Below are positions 29,979 to 46,830 of a stretch of 64,000 bases of DNA, in pieces. The translations under genes were made by a program, and so were the position numbers. How positions within the stretch are numbered: position 1 is the first letter of the stretch; every line of letters begins with the position of its first letter. The notes under the pieces were generated by a model. That model saw only the letters and a list, made by a program, of their open reading frames with translations, ran no database searches and was not told the origin of the DNA. Location of the stretch: positions 1,674,001-1,738,000 of the forward strand of contig NC_018866.1 in assembly GCF_000305775.1 (NCBI RefSeq). Reading direction: 5' to 3'. The stretch comes from Dehalobacter sp. DCA. GTDB lineage: Bacteria > Bacillota > Desulfitobacteriia > Desulfitobacteriales > Syntrophobotulaceae.

Positions 29979-30087
29979 TTTTAGTTTCTCCTTTAAATTT
30001 TTCCGAATAACCCCTGTAGAACCTGAAAGCGATGTGCTACAATAGTTCTATGACCGAAATATCAATCGAATAGGGATACAGGAGCAA

Positions 30088-30178
30088 CGACAATGGCAAA
30101 CTTGGTGAAAGCCAGGGACGCAAAGCTATGGGTCTTCCAGAATAATTCTGATGACTGCCAGGCCACCGAATCCGCTCA
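30088..30178 (+). promoter_or_regulatory. c-di-GMP-I (GEMM) riboswitch
   Basis: The core signature is present in order: GGCAAA, then GTGAAA, GGGACGCAAAGC, a short GGTCTTCC arm, and the closing GCCAGGCCACCGA. These are the two helices and the tetraloop-receptor of the GEMM-I aptamer. It lies about 90 bp upstream of the HD-GYP gene, which suggests that c-di-GMP controls its own phosphodiesterase. Confidence 0.92.
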
Positions 30179-30194
30179 GGTTTGTTTTGAATGT

Positions 30195-30226
30195 CGCCAT
30201 GCAATCTGCTGGTGATTTTTTTGTTG
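30195..30226 (+). terminator. Riboswitch expression-platform terminator
   Basis: TCGCCA pairs with TGGTGA, followed by TTTTTTTG. Placed between aptamer and ribosome-binding site, so it is the likely on/off switch. Confidence 0.65.
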
Positions 30227-30265
30227 CTTCAGCTAGCACTGATTTATCGGAAAGGAAGATTACAA

Positions 30266-31327
30266 TTGCGTCAGGTAAGTGTAAACCGGCTTCAAAAGGG
30301 AGACGTATTGGGACGAACCATTTTCTCGCATAACGGCCGTTCATTACTTGGGAAAGGAGTCACGCTGACCTCCCCCTATATCGAGCGGCTGAAAGAGCTG
30401 GGCATCAGTATTGTCTATGTGGACGATGACGAAACGAAGGATATTGTTATCGAAGATGTCATTTCCGAGGAAAACAGGCGGGAGGCAATGAACTCCATTG
30501 AGCATTCAGCGGAAGCGGTACGAATCGGTAAAGACCTCAATGGTTTTCAGGTAAAAAAGACGGTAAACAACATCATCGGAGACGTTCTGTTTCAAGAGAA
30601 GATATTTCTGAGCCTGACAGATATGCGGAGCTATGACAATCAAGTTTATGCGCATTCAGTCAGTGTTTGTGTCCTTGCGACAATTTTGGGCAAAGCTTTG
30701 GGACTGGATAAAGATACCCTGGAGGCGCTGGCGGTAGGGGCTTTGCTTCACGATATAGGGACTGTCAAGCTGCCAAAAGAGCTTGTCGCCAAACGTGAGG
30801 CCTTTACTCTGAAGGAAAATGACCTATATAAGACGCATACCGTACATGGATTTGAAATACTTCGGAACAAATCGGAATTAAACTTATTGAGTGCGCATAT
30901 TGCTTTGCAGCATCACGAATGGCTGAACGGAAACGGCTATCCCCGGAAGCTGTCCGGCCGGCACCTCCATGTCTTGGCTCAAATCGTAGGGCTGGCCGAC
31001 TTCTATGATAATCTGGTCAATGATGGCCCGGGCCACTCCCGGATCGTCCCGCATGAAGCCTGTGAAATTGTGATGGGATGTGCGAACAAGCTATTCTCCC
31101 AGCAGTTGGTTGTAACGTTCTTAAAGCATGTTGCGGCCTATCCGACCGGCTGTACCGTTAAGCTCAATACAGGTGAAGTTGGGATTGTGGTTGACCAAAA
31201 TAAAAGTTTGCCGATGCGCCCGATTATCAGGGTATTAATCGCCGACAAAGGGCTGGCCCATGTCCAGGCTAAGGAATATAACCTTGTCGAAGATCTTACA
31301 ACCTTTATTGTATCCATTGTCGAGTGA
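30266..31327 (+). CDS. HD-GYP c-di-GMP phosphodiesterase
   Basis: 353 residues from the TTG at 30266 (AAGGAAG nine bases upstream); an in-frame ATG at 30191 lies inside the riboswitch platform and is rejected. N-terminal ~100 residues form a DUF3391-like region (VNRLQKGDVLGRTIF). The HD-GYP domain follows: LLHDIGTVKLPKEL (HD) and HHEWLNGNGYPRKL, LAQIVGLADFYDNLV (GYP). Hydrolyses c-di-GMP. Confidence 0.92.
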   Translation: MRQVSVNRLQKGDVLGRTIFSHNGRSLLGKGVTLTSPYIERLKELGISIVYVDDDETKDIVIEDVISEENRREAMNSIEHSAEAVRIGKDLNGFQVKKTVNNIIGDVLFQEKIFLSLTDMRSYDNQVYAHSVSVCVLATILGKALGLDKDTLEALAVGALLHDIGTVKLPKELVAKREAFTLKENDLYKTHTVHGFEILRNKSELNLLSAHIALQHHEWLNGNGYPRKLSGRHLHVLAQIVGLADFYDNLVNDGPGHSRIVPHEACEIVMGCANKLFSQQLVVTFLKHVAAYPTGCTVKLNTGEVGIVVDQNKSLPMRPIIRVLIADKGLAHVQAKEYNLVEDLTTFIVSIVE

Positions 31328-36097: not shown

Positions 36098-36221
36098 TAA
36101 GTAAGATTGAACAAATACATCGTTGAGATCCCATAAAAGGGGTCTTTTCTTATTCTACAAAGTAAGTTCCCTAGCAAAAAACTAGACTATTAAGGAATAC
36201 GCAGATATGGAAAATTTCATC
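36098..36221. other. Remnant of the distal end of the cassette array
   Basis: No gene. Just after the intron fragment a start ATGAAATTTTCC opens an 11-codon frame, probably the stub of a lost cassette gene. A short AGATCCC/GGGGTCT hairpin with T-run (36131-36152) may be a terminator. Confidence 0.4.
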
Positions 36222-36345
36222 GTCACGGTAGAGATGCCGGTTACCCGGCACCCCCCGCAGTCGAGTAAGCCAAGGGAATTTCACCCTTAACTTCTCACGG
36301 AACCGGACTTGAAAGTCTCCCCTCATCCGGCTCTTATCATTCAAC
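36222..36345 (-). mobile_element. Group II intron, 3' end only (intron A)
   Basis: On the minus strand a domain V-like hairpin (GAGCCGGATGAGG ... CAAGTCCGGTTC, 36299-36334) is followed by a domain VI region ending ATCTCTACCGTGAC at 36222. The last 45 bases nearly match intron C (42521-42560). Everything upstream was replaced by an insertion sequence. The downstream flank GATGAAAT would complete an attC core GTTA|GAT. Confidence 0.8.
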
Positions 36346-36975
36346 TCATTACAACATTCCTGTTACGGTATTGCCAGTGTGTAAATAAATTAGGTTCATG
36401 TACTCTTCTATTTGCTTCTCAATTTCTTTTATTCTTGCTACCGCTTTTTCTTTTACGACGTTCTGTTTTTTAGAATTTACCGCTTTAAACTTACTTCCGT
36501 CTACCGGTACTAGCTCTCCACCAAACATAGATAGTTTCTTACAGAGTAGTGTGAATTCTTTAAACACTTTTGAGATTTCTTCTTTGTTGTCTTTCCTGAA
36601 GTTCGCTATCGTTTTATGATCAGGTGTTAGTCTTTTCAAAAGCCACATTACCTCTAAATTTCTATGACTTTCCTTTTCAAGTTTTCTGCTTGATCTGATT
36701 GCATTGATGTATCCATAGAGGTAGAGCTTTAGCAGATCCTTGGGGTTATATGGAGGGCAGCCCGTTTCACATGCTTTCGAATACTTAAATTCTATTTCTA
36801 GATTATCTACAAATGCGTCAATAAACTGAACTTCATTGTCCTCTGCTATATAATCATCTAAGGTTTCCGGAAATAGAGTTACTTGTTCTCGGTTTATTCC
36901 GCTTTTATATGGCATAATTATTCTCCTTGAATAACTAATTTTTTACTTAATTATACCATATTTATTTATTATTTC
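36346..36975 (-). pseudogene. IS1182/IS5-type transposase, N-terminal half
   Basis: 188 codons (36349-36915): MPYKSGINREQVTLFPETLDDYIAEDNEVQFIDAFVDNLE ... VPVDGSKFKAVNSKKQN. The first catalytic Asp (PVDGSKF) is present; the gene ends after a helical stretch, so the rest of the DDE domain is missing. It separates intron A from attC-1. Confidence 0.85.
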
Positions 36976-37909: not shown

Positions 37910-38024
37910 ATGATCCCCTTCAATTTTATTTGCGCGCCAGGACGGCGCGTCCGTGCGGGATATGTCGTAGAACGTTTCGTGAATTCCCGAAGTCTAGTTA
38001 CTACTTGCATATTCTCTCAGATTT

Positions 38025-39943
38025 GGTGAGTAGAAGGGCTCCTCCTAGAGCCACAACCCTCTCAGAACCGGACGTGCCCAATTAAGGCATCCGGCTCCAC
38101 ACATGGTCCTCTTTACACAAAGGCTGAATTGAGATTGATTAGTGATTTCGGCCTGACCAGCGGATATCTCTCTAGCATCTGGTTAAAACGTGGCCAGGTT
38201 AGTTTGGTTCGCTGGCTTCTCCGTTTCAGCCATTTATAGAGTATGCGTTCTACCTGATTTCGGTATTCCAATAGCCCTTGCCAGTTATCACTGACTCCGT
38301 AATAGTTGTAGTGCCCTCTGAGTTTAGCATTGACTTTCTTCCAGATGTCTTTAAACGGCAGGTTTCGGTTTGTTTTTATCCACTCATTAAATTCTATGAG
38401 CTTGGCCTGGAATTTCTTCCGGGCTGTTTTCCATCTTAGCTTGAATCGCCCTTTCCGGCTTCTTCCGCAGTAGTGGGTGATTCCCAGAAAGTCGAATGTT
38501 TCCGGCTTTCTTCCTCCCCGTCTTTGAACATCTCTTTGGGCATACCTGCCAAACTCGATGATTCTGGTTTTCTCTTCTGCTATTTCCAGATTAAACTTCT
38601 TCAGCCGTTTCTTTAAGGCTTCGTAAAACCGCTCAGCATCTTTTTGGTATTGAAAGCAGGCAACTGTATCATCCGCAAAACGAGTAAGATAAGCTTCTCC
38701 CTGGCACTGTTTTGTTATTATTTTGTTAAACCATAAGTCAAGCACATAGTGCAGGTAGATGTTTCCCAACAATGGAGATAGGCTTCCTCCCTGGGGAACG
38801 CCTTCTTCGGTCTTGCTCAGTTTTCCTTCTTCCATTACCCCTGCTTTGAGGAATCTTTTGATGAGCTTCAGTATTTTGCTGTCACTGATTCGTTCTTGGA
38901 GCATTTTCAGCAGCCACTCATGGTCGACATGATCAAAGTAGCCGCGAATGTCGGCATCTACGATATACCCGACTTTCCTGGTCCCTATTTTCCGGCTCAG
39001 ATCTTTTAGGGCGTCGTGTTGACTTCTGCCCGGTCTGAATCCGTAGGAATCTTCCAAGAAATCCTGCTCATAGATGCTTTCCAGAATGATCACCAGAGCG
39101 TTCTGCACCAGTTTGTCTTCCAGTACAGGGATTCCGAGTGGTCTGAGTTTATTGCTTCCTGCTTTAGGTATGAATTTCCTACGCACCGGTGTCGGTCTGT
39201 ATGATCCTTCTTTGAGCTGTTCCAGCAAGTTTCTTAGGTTTTCTTCAAGATTTCCCCCATAGGATGCTTTTGTTTCTCCGTCTATTCCCGAAGCTGCTGT
39301 ACCGGATAGTCTTCTGAACGCTTCTCTCAGTGTCCCTTTGCTCATGAGATGGGCTAAGGAACAGAATTTTGCTTTCTTATGTCTTTGGGCTCTTTGTGCT
39401 ATGCTTGCAAGTTTTGTTCTCACTGTTTCTCCGGTTCTGCGTCCGGTTAGTGTGTCCTTTGCAGGCGGTTCCATATGTTACACTCCTTCCCTCGTTCAGC
39501 ATTACCTGAAGTCATCAGTACTATTAGCGTAATCCGACTTCCCGGCGGCTTTTGCCTTCCTTGCCTCTTCGGCTTGTTCGGCATACTCTCCTTGCGGAAA
39601 GACCTTTCCGGGATCTCCCTGGGTTTCCGCACATTCTTGTTGTTCAGCTAGGTAGGGCCTTAGACCCCGGAGGTGTCTATCCGCACTCGCCATTTTCGTA
39701 CAGATAGCTGTTGCCTTCCACGTTCCCAACCGCTTCGGCCATCCTCATTAGTTACAGCATTTTCGGGGCTCGATACCGTTCACTGCCGGTTACCAACCGG
39801 TCAATTCTACCTCGCTGACTTTCTGTCTACGCTTAAAGCATCACGTTACCGCAATACCTCTAAGACTCGATACGGAGCGGTTGGCTAGACCTTACTTCGA
39901 CGGGATCTGCCCCCGTTAGAACGTGCGACCTGCCAGGACGCAC
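38025..39943 (-). mobile_element. Group II intron B (class C type) in attC-2
   Basis: 1919 bp. 5' end GTGCGTCCTGGCAGG at 39943; 3' end ..CTACTCACC at 38025. Domain V-like hairpin GAGCCGGATGC ... GCACGTCCGGTTC at 38062-38100. Boundaries come from direct comparison with attC-6, which has no insertion (CAGATTT|TGGGAATTC). Insertion lies at the inner stem of the attC. Encodes its own reverse transcriptase. The DIV reading frame is intact, so the intron may be active. Confidence 0.92.
38113..39474 (-). CDS. ltrA: Group II intron reverse transcriptase/maturase (intron B)
   Basis: 453 residues. RT blocks: LRPLGIPVLEDKLVQNAL, DSYGFRPGRSQHDAL, VDADIRGYFDHVDH, GVPQGGSLSPLLGNIYLH, and the catalytic YLTRFADDTV. 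Maturase (X) domain ends KLRGHYNYYGVSDN ... YKWLKRRSQRTKLTW. No HNH endonuclease domain, as in class C introns. Splices the intron and copies it into new sites. Confidence 0.94.
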   Translation of the reverse strand: MEPPAKDTLTGRRTGETVRTKLASIAQRAQRHKKAKFCSLAHLMSKGTLREAFRRLSGTAASGIDGETKASYGGNLEENLRNLLEQLKEGSYRPTPVRRKFIPKAGSNKLRPLGIPVLEDKLVQNALVIILESIYEQDFLEDSYGFRPGRSQHDALKDLSRKIGTRKVGYIVDADIRGYFDHVDHEWLLKMLQERISDSKILKLIKRFLKAGVMEEGKLSKTEEGVPQGGSLSPLLGNIYLHYVLDLWFNKIITKQCQGEAYLTRFADDTVACFQYQKDAERFYEALKKRLKKFNLEIAEEKTRIIEFGRYAQRDVQRRGGRKPETFDFLGITHYCGRSRKGRFKLRWKTARKKFQAKLIEFNEWIKTNRNLPFKDIWKKVNAKLRGHYNYYGVSDNWQGLLEYRNQVERILYKWLKRRSQRTKLTWPRFNQMLERYPLVRPKSLINLNSAFV

Positions 39944-39998
39944 TGGGAATTCACTGTTATATGATGTGACCACCCAGACCCAAAATGCAATCCAAATT

Positions 39999-42520: not shown

Positions 42521-44422
42521 GTCACGGTAGAGATGCCGGTCGCCCGACACCCCCCGCACAGATCCCGGCGTGCGGAACTACCGCACCGGGCTCTTCAAGA
42601 GTATTCGCTTCCGTAATAAAGCTTAAAACCCAAAGCTAAGCTGCTTCTGGTTCGTTTCGACTATCCTTGGGGTTAGTACTCCATACCTTTTTAATACCCT
42701 ATTAAACTCGCTCCAATCAAAGCTTTTCCTTTGACTCCTTCTATTCAGCCATTTGTACAGGGTTTTCATTGCCTGTTCGTAGAATTCTCTCAGCCTTCCA
42801 GAGTTTCCTATCAGCCCATAGTAGTTGTAATAGCCCCTTAATTTGCTGTTTAGCTCCGGGAACAATCGTCTTAGTCTTTTGTTCCGGTTCTCTCTGCACC
42901 ATTCTTTGAAGTTTGCCAGGGACTTCCTTAACCTTTTCCTGGCTGTTCTCCTGGTGATTATTGTTTTCCCCCGGCGAGATACTCCCCATCGAAATTCGAA
43001 CCCCAAGTATTCAAAGCTGCTGCTTTGTTTTCTCAACCATCGATTGAATTGGATGATTTGGGTCTTATCCACTGCCAGTTCCAGTCCGAATTTCTCTAAC
43101 CGTTTAGGTAGCGACCTGTAGAATTTGTCGGCATCTCCTTTATATTGGAACGCACATACAAAATCATCGCAGTACCTGCATAGATACGCTTCTCCTTCGC
43201 AGTTTGGTTTTACTATCTTCTCAAACCATAGGTCAAGTACATAGTGCAGATAAGTATTCGCTAGTATTGGACTAATGATTCCGCCTTGCGGACTTCCTGT
43301 TATTGGATGTTCCACTTCTCCATCCTGCTTTAAGATTCCTGCTTTGAGCCACTTTTTGATGAGTCCCAGAAATGCCTTGTCATCTATTCGTTGCTCTAGC
43401 ATTCTTATTAGCCAAGCGTGGTCTATGTTTTGAAAGAATCCTTTGATGTCTGCTTCTACGATGTAGCTGTAGTCGCCATAGTTGAGTTCTTTGCTTAAGT
43501 CTTTGATTGCTGTGTGAGCACTGATTTTTGGCCGGTATCCATAACTACTTGCAAGGAAATCCTGCTCATAGATGGCTTCCAATATCTTTGCCGCTGCGCT
43601 CTGCACGAGCTTATCCGCTATGGCTGGTATTCCCAGCGGTCTTGTTTTTCCTTCCCCTTTCGGTATGTCTACCCTTCGTAACAACTTTGCCCGATATCTT
43701 TTCTTTTCCAGATGCTCTGCCAGGTTTTCTATGTTTTGCTTAAGCTCTTCTGCAAATTCCTTGGCTGTTACTTTGTCCACTCCGGCAGCTGCCTTTTTGT
43801 TGTTCGTTTTCCAGGCTTCTGTGAGTGAGCTGTAGTTGAGCATCCGGTATAAGTTGCGAAATCGATAGCTTTTAAGTCTTTTTGCTTTCTGTGCTATTCC
43901 TTGCAGGGAAGTTCGCATCAATTTCTCCGATCCTGCTTGTCCGGTTGATGTTTCCTTTGCAAGCTGCATACTCTCGTTAACCCCTTCCCCATGTAGCCGG
44001 CTTTCCCGACCTCAGAGTAGTATGGGTTAATCCGACTCCCTGTCTGTCATCAGCCTTCCTCTTCTTCGATTGGTAAGTCCTACCGGCTTTCGCCGGAACA
44101 AACAGGGTCTCCCAAGTTCCTGATCCTTCTCTCCATACATGCCATGTTCTCTGACCCCGGCAGACCCTCGGGAATCTTGCCTTTTCGATCCCTCTGTGTT
44201 GGCTTCCGTGACGTTAAACACGTCGCCATCTGCATTTATCACGTTTACGAGGCTGAATTTGCTTCAGGAGTTACGGTTCCCCCTATGGCCTATATAGTTC
44301 TCTGTGTACGCTTCGCCTTACTGTTGCCAGTTTCGGCGCAACACTCGATATGGGTGGTTGGCTAGACCTTACCCAGCAAGGACTTTCACCTTGCAAGAAG
44401 TACCAAGCTTTGCTTGGCGCAC
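42521..44422 (-). mobile_element. Group II intron C (class C type) in the attC-5 core
   Basis: 1902 bp. 5' end GTGCGCCAAGCAAAGC at 44422; 3' end ..TCTCTACCGTGAC at 42521. Domain V-like hairpin GAGCCCGGTGCGG ... CCGCACGCCGGGATC at 42562-42600. The flanks GACGTTA and AATGAAAT join into GTTAAAT, a perfect attC core. Encodes a reverse transcriptase. Confidence 0.9.
42623..43969 (-). CDS. ltrA: Group II intron reverse transcriptase/maturase (intron C)
   Basis: 448 residues. RT blocks TRPLGIPAIADKLVQSAA, SSYGYRPKISAHTAI, VEADIKGFFQNIDH, GSPQGGIISPILANTYLH and the catalytic YLCRYCDDFV. Maturase domain ends KLRGYYNYYGLIGNS ... LYKWLNRRSQRKSFDW; no endonuclease domain. A different lineage from the intron B protein (YCDD versus FADD), so the two introns arrived independently. 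Confidence 0.94.
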   Translation of the reverse strand: MQLAKETSTGQAGSEKLMRTSLQGIAQKAKRLKSYRFRNLYRMLNYSSLTEAWKTNNKKAAAGVDKVTAKEFAEELKQNIENLAEHLEKKRYRAKLLRRVDIPKGEGKTRPLGIPAIADKLVQSAAAKILEAIYEQDFLASSYGYRPKISAHTAIKDLSKELNYGDYSYIVEADIKGFFQNIDHAWLIRMLEQRIDDKAFLGLIKKWLKAGILKQDGEVEHPITGSPQGGIISPILANTYLHYVLDLWFEKIVKPNCEGEAYLCRYCDDFVCAFQYKGDADKFYRSLPKRLEKFGLELAVDKTQIIQFNRWLRKQSSSFEYLGFEFRWGVSRRGKTIITRRTARKRLRKSLANFKEWCRENRNKRLRRLFPELNSKLRGYYNYYGLIGNSGRLREFYEQAMKTLYKWLNRRSQRKSFDWSEFNRVLKRYGVLTPRIVETNQKQLSFGF

Positions 44423-44494
44423 TAACGTCTCGCGAAGTTCCGCAGCGCCTTACTACATTCATCTATTCTAAGTTGCGGAACTTCGCTGTTCTAC
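44423..44494 (-). other. attC-5, core interrupted by intron C
   Basis: Minus-strand cores GTAGAAC and GTTA(intron)AAT. Inner stem GCGAAGTTCCGCA / TGCGGAACTTCGC is perfect over 13 bp. Same loop family as attC-4. Confidence 0.92.
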
Positions 44495-45196: not shown

Positions 45197-45292
45197 AATA
45201 TCCCCTACTTCTTATACTATCAGTTAATCTAAAAGTGAAGTAATATACTTTTTATCCGCGCCAAGGACGGCGCGGCCTTTGCACAATATGTC

Positions 45293-45369
45293 GTAGAACG
45301 TCCCGTGAATTCCCGAAGTCTGGTTACTACCTCCATATTCTCTCAGATTTTGGGAATTCACTGTTAGAC
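45293..45369 (-). other. attC-6 (empty homologue of attC-2)
   Basis: Minus-strand cores GTCTAAC and GTTCTAC, inner stem GTGAATTCCC / GGGAATTCAC perfect, 77 bp. It has the same loop as attC-2 without any intron, so it serves as the unoccupied site for intron B. Confidence 0.92.
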
Positions 45370-45425
45370 GACGTATGGCCAAAGCTTACATGCAAATCTC
45401 AAATCACATCCTGATACTTATTTCC

Positions 45426-46262: not shown

Positions 46263-46830
46263 TTTAAACCTCTATGTCCAGTGCATCGATTGGGCTGTGT
46301 ATTTTGGCTAGATCCCGTTGGCTTACATGGGTATATATTTCTGTTGTTTTAGAATTTTTATGCCCTAAAAGTTCCTGGATATATCTCAGATCCGTACCGC
46401 CTTCCAGCAAATGGGTGGCAAAGGAGTGTCTGAGTGATGAACAGATACATCTTTCTTAATATTTGCTTTTATGCAGGCTTCCTAAAAAATATTTTGAACA
46501 CTCCGTTCCGATAGGTGACGTCCTTCATTTCCTCCCTTAAAGAGCCAGTCTTTCACCTTCTATTCGCTTACATATTTTCTTAAAATATTTAGTGTAATTT
46601 CAGATAGAATTGAATACCGGTCTTTTCTCCCTTTGGCCTGCCGGATATGGATAAGCATTCTGCTTTTATCAATGTCATTCACTTGCAGATTAACCACTTC
46701 ACTTACCCTTAAACCAGCAGAATATATTAAAAACAATACTCAAAAGTTACAAAGAGTTCCCTTTGATTTTCTTCCTGGGCGTTGACATATACAGCCATCT
46801 TTCTGCTCCATTCTTACATAATGGAAATAT
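46263..46830 (-). pseudogene. Tyrosine recombinase, XerC/D-type, disrupted
   Basis: Segments in order: YSAGLRVSEVVNLQVNDIDKSRMLIHIRQAKGRKDRYSILSE, stop, VKDWLFKGGNEGRHLSERSVQNIF, stop, [15 protein letters not shown], frameshift, [39 protein letters not shown]. The catalytic Arg, HxxR, His and Tyr are recognisable. At least two stops and one frameshift, and the N-terminal SAM-like domain is missing. The IntI-specific extra domain between the second and third motif is absent. Same direction as the cassettes. Confidence 0.85.

Follow-up and report, generated by a model that had tools for sequence, protein, structure and literature searches.

A complete group II intron, most likely of class E type, within an attC site of a Dehalobacter cassette array, and its relatives at the same attC point

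An intron lodged inside an attC raises the question of which kind of group II intron can occupy such a site and how it reads its target. The attC introns known so far are mostly IIC introns of Gram-negative bacteria, thought to require a folded hairpin. The window analysed here, a stretch of 64,000 nucleotides from Dehalobacter sp. DCA (NC_018866.1, positions 1,674,001 to 1,738,000), carries a cassette array in which one site, attC-2, is interrupted by a group II intron designated intron B.

Anatomy of intron B and its junctions in attC-2

Intron B is complete and reads GUGCGUCCUGG...CUUCUACUCACC from 39943 down to 38025 on the minus strand; it has the D1-D6 ribozyme and the IEP within D4 that characterise a group II intron retroelement. 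The active-site motif of this IEP is FADD, and a domain search over its 453 aa found no endonuclease domain. The elements concerned are the following.

38025 to 39943, minus strand: intron B as a whole (1919 nt; GUGCG...ACC; ends set by covariance models together with the empty sites)
39655 to 39910, minus strand: D1-D4 ribozyme core (Rfam RF02005, 135 bits, E 3e-38)
38025 to 38099, minus strand: domains 5 and 6 (Rfam RF00029, 42.5 bits, model 1-77 of 77)
38065 to 38097, minus strand: D5 with an AGC triad
38031, minus strand: probable branch A
38113 to 39474, minus strand: IEP of 453 aa, RT and maturase (RVT_1, E 3e-38; GIIM)
39944 to 39969, minus strand: R''-L'' half of attC-2, the 5' exon of intron B
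37960 to 38024, minus strand: loop-L'-R' half of attC-2, the 3' exon of intron B
45290 to 45372, minus strand: attC-6, an empty paralogous site
46279 to 46733, minus strand: remains of an integron-integrase-like gene, broken into fragments, where the array ends (best match of the genome, 79 bits, in-frame stops)

The 5' flank ATATAACAGTGAATTCCCA and the 3' flank AAATCTGAG...CTTCGGGAATTCACGAAACGTTCTAC are the two halves of one attC and, together with the Rfam matches to D1-D4 and D5-D6, they bear out the original prediction that attC-2 is split by a complete 1919-nt group II intron. The junctions had been deduced by alignment with attC-6, which is indeed empty, paralogous and 90% identical to attC-2 over the larger half, but is a separate locus rather than attC-2 in its empty state; no relative genome carries both flanks, and no such allele was found among them. 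Stronger than attC-6 alone are 36 distinct empty sister attC sites, from this genome and 20 others, which align through the junction (marked here by a slash): /AAAT follows it in 28 of the 36 and the exact 7-mer TTCCCA/A is present in 16, while only two sites start with /C, both of another loop type. This many empty sites were sought because the AY rule would shift the 3' end by 1 nt, to ...CTCAC/C at 38026. That junction was rejected in favour of ...CTCACC/A: the empty sister sites and those of a related intron (L044) agree on it, as does the EBS3-IBS3 pair. The RF00029 match likewise stops exactly at 38025, the predicted coordinate. With its 3' end thus set at 38025 by the sister attCs, intron B ends in CC, a departure from AY, whereas its 5' end GUGCG fits GUGYG; since a CC 3' end has been published for RmInt1 (PMC4238363), it is no bar to membership of the group II family. 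The empty sister sites of L044 read TTCCCG/CAAGGG, with a single C following G, so that L044 also ends in ACC. Intron B lies, as predicted, in the inner stem of attC-2, immediately 3' of the L'' arm, and not in the core as does intron C, a second intron of the window.

The sites of the array were recognised by their boxes and fold rather than by an attC-specific covariance model. They comprise R'', L'', L' and R' boxes with AAC/GTT cores, span about 80 nt and each directly follow the stop codon of one ORF of the same sense. Their orientation was set by ORF direction and fold strength, the core consensus giving no decision: the cassette ORFs around intron B share its minus strand, and in attC-6 the stronger fold is that of the plus strand (z -4.6 versus -1.9), as expected of a bottom strand; intron B is accordingly a top-strand insertion with the same sense as the cassettes. 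A different view of these palindromic sites would be that they belong to another repeat family, for instance REP-like, that the intron targets. It would fit with the lack of an intact integron integrase in the host genome and in 41 genomes, the latter searched at a strict threshold at which controls also went undetected. This view is nevertheless improbable given the box architecture and the single same-sense ORF preceding each site, the bias of the fold towards one strand, and the fact that the array ends at the best integron-integrase match of the genome. Sites of the attC-2 family are also seen, as attC-like sequences, in 22 of 31 related genomes, and half an attC of this family, its other half missing, lies at G000:C1:1975306-1975394 (in L061).

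Target reading and relatives at the same attC point

Pairing partners between intron B and its exons are found on both sides of the insertion.

39723 to 39728, minus strand: EBS1, UGGGAA
39944 to 39949, minus strand: IBS1, TTCCCA, inner end of the attC L'' arm
39754 to 39759, minus strand: EBS2 candidate, UGCUGU
39952 to 39957, minus strand: IBS2 candidate, ACAGTG, at the R''/L'' boundary
39662, minus strand: probable EBS3 (U)
38024, minus strand: IBS3 (A), first base of the 3' exon

EBS1 and IBS1 form 6 bp, at the bases before 39944 where the original prediction had suggested looking, EBS2 and IBS2 about 6 bp, and EBS3 and IBS3 1 bp. A 6/6 Watson-Crick match would arise by chance in the 9-nt EBS1 loop with a probability of about 0.001, relatives not yet counted. 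The EBS2 candidate, some 30 nt upstream of EBS1 and facing exon positions -15 to -9, makes 4 Watson-Crick and 2 GU pairs (UGCUGU/ACAGTG). Across 11 related introns, the matched EBS1/IBS1 pairs beat 20,000 of 20,000 permutations; for EBS2/IBS2 the permutation P is 0.001 with all 11 introns and 0.009 with one intron per target type. The 5' exon of intron B, for its part, folds no better than shuffled sequences and has no hairpin directly before IBS1; the hairpin used by IIC introns is thus absent here. Judged from these pairings, target choice looks like ordinary homing rather than hairpin recognition.

The nearest introns, L044 (84% IEP identity; same family, different genus) and L045 (72%; same phylum, different family), occupy the same point: both follow ...ACATAACACGAG, then AA or CT, then TTCCCG, the same R''-L'' arm as that of intron B, and matching L' and R' boxes (TCGGGAAT...GTTAT) lie downstream. 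The array that holds L045 has additional attCs, among them one of the attC-6 kind. Their target is TTCCCG/C as against TTCCCA/A for intron B, and EBS1 and EBS3 differ correspondingly: the EBS1 loop holds CGGGAA in L044 and L045 and UGGGAA in intron B, and the probable EBS3, the base following GGGGUC, is G facing C in the former and U facing A in the latter. In L047, L057, L063, L065 and L037, too, the EBS3 position pairs with the base that opens the 3' exon; in L039 it does so as a G-U pair. For EBS2/IBS2, L044 forms 6 Watson-Crick pairs (UCGUGU/ACACGA), while the pairing in L045 is weak.

Intron B, L044 and L045 form one clade with support 100/99 in an IEP tree built without L049; the next relatives, at about 47-55% IEP identity, have other targets, with the exception of intron C, which follows a complete attC. 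The lineage at the attC inner stem thus has three members known here, in three genomes; searches of 398 and 83 genomes returned no member closer than L044 and L045, and scans of viral contigs no further member. Three exact matches to TTCCCRGTGCGTCCTGG in viral contigs were dismissed as chance matches within phage genes. A related intron is present in seven copies in one genome (L046 and L050-L055), each after the same repeat-like GGTGCCAGGCA.

The common position could alternatively go back to a single ancestral insertion at a cassette end, carried to three genomes by cassette transfer, with no specificity for attC. The likeness of L044 and L045 in their attC loops and upstream sequence agrees with such a history, as does the widespread, mobile-looking attC family; these two introns may share one ancestral insertion, so that at least two independent insertions are counted rather than three. 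As an account of all three introns, however, transfer is unlikely: L044 and L045 sit in attCs of a different subfamily from that of intron B, empty sisters exist for each, and EBS1 and EBS3 vary in step with the target. Because its relatives occupy the same attC point, the small lineage appears to home to attC by base pairing.

Class assignment

The original prediction had associated intron B with class C, the best known attC introns, and an IIC-attC intron like S.ma.I2, unusually placed but reading the folded attC hairpin, would share with intron B both the targeting of attC (PMC7923331, PMC4424553) and an IEP without endonuclease, as in class C (PMC7923331). On the other features examined the assignment fails, and it can be regarded as highly improbable. 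Intron B matches RF02005 and not RF02001 and RF01998, the models matched by the host genome's own IIC introns, which are 39-42% identical to it and mostly follow terminators, as in tatcaagggatctgtcccttgatattttataa/GTGCG; its IEP also speaks against class C, and its D5 carries an AGC and not a CGC triad. IIC-attC introns insert into the bottom strand, opposite to cassette sense, at R'' TTGT/T, and use a hairpin (PMC7923331, PMC4424553). Intron B, by contrast, runs in cassette sense and occupies the top strand where the L'' arm meets the loop (TTCCCA/A), with a 6-bp EBS1 backed by EBS2 and EBS3 and no hairpin upstream.

Matches in S. meliloti prompted consideration of class D, which was rejected. 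RmInt1 (class D, IIB3), located via its published EBS1 TTTCGTC and IBS1 GATGAGA, resembles intron B in its missing endonuclease, its CC 3' end and its EBS1/EBS2/EBS3 recognition (PMC4238363), but it matches RF01999, shares 32% IEP identity and targets ISRm2011-2. Another S. meliloti intron, L063, matches RF02005, has 46% IEP identity to intron B and occurs in broken form on pRmeGR4b, the plasmid on which the disrupted class E intron S.me.I4 has been placed (PMC5894124); intron B is therefore called class-E-like. This presumed S.me.I4 type (L063, L074) shares with intron B the Rfam D1D4-6 model and the lack of an endonuclease; it differs in lying outside attC, in ending in GAC and in an EBS3 G that pairs with C. 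In the IEP tree, the deep branches do not separate class E from class D. Its ribozyme is IIB-like with EBS1 and EBS3, its IEP endonuclease-less, and intron B is most likely, on sequence criteria, of the IIB-like type and bacterial class E, a label that hangs on one anchor, L063.

Homing to attC and neighbouring elements

Taken as a whole, intron B is likely a complete, endonuclease-lacking, IIB-like retroelement, most likely of class E, from a small lineage homing to attC. The broader reading, to which we assign a probability of roughly 0.7, is that a previously undescribed class-E-like (IIB) lineage of Bacillota homes to attC and reads L'' through EBS1, EBS2 and EBS3, with EBS1 and EBS3 re-tuned to attC subfamilies, and so adds to the IIC-attC introns a second and independent mode of attC targeting. 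Homing would proceed by EBS/IBS base pairing, with a presumed mobility and priming route. Splicing of the cassette-array transcript would then restore attC in the RNA only, the DNA site being split by 1.9 kb, and the intron could thereby affect cassette movement; such insertions should freeze one cassette end in DNA. A IIB-like lineage that reads attC by plain pairing, and in which exons and EBS have changed together in nature, would make target re-tuning directly testable, and the cassette arrays of Bacillota would receive homing introns of more than one class.

IIC-attC introns and 5'-truncated class E introns in CALIN have already been published (PMC7923331), and a CL1 intron next to an attC is also on record in the literature. 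The closest of these, H.ha.F1/F2 from a Halorhodospira halochloris CALIN, resemble intron B in their class E type IEP, their setting in a cassette array and the attC or attC-like structure upstream, but their 5' truncation leaves no readable junction or EBS (PMC7923331), whereas intron B is complete, sits within an attC and shares its insertion point with relatives. A limited search of mostly non-subscription literature returned no intron of type IIB or class E that is full-length and inserted in an attC with its junction resolved; within the searchable papers, a class-E-like lineage that has resolved junctions and specialises on the inner stem of attC appears to be new.

Further elements were seen in the window and elsewhere in the genome. 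Intron C (window 42524-44424) and its second copy L002 (G000:C1:933167) are each immediately preceded by a complete attC, with the junction ACGTTA/ in R', and have the EBS1 UAACGU; this second attC-associated intron shares with intron B the ribozyme type (Rfam D1D4-6), the cassette sense and 47% IEP identity, but not the position. Its second copy sits in a second cassette array (L060, G000:C1:926001-946000), in which an intron of another type (L004, RF02003) is found beside an attC. At window 36211-36335, next to a truncated transposase gene (36349-36915), a foreign D5-D6 (RF00029, 59.8 bits) is fused to a fragment that resembles the D6 end of intron C; this is probably the remnant of an intron inserted into another intron. 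Elsewhere in the window, a c-di-GMP-I-GGC riboswitch (window 30086-30171) lies just upstream of the ORF at 30191-31327.
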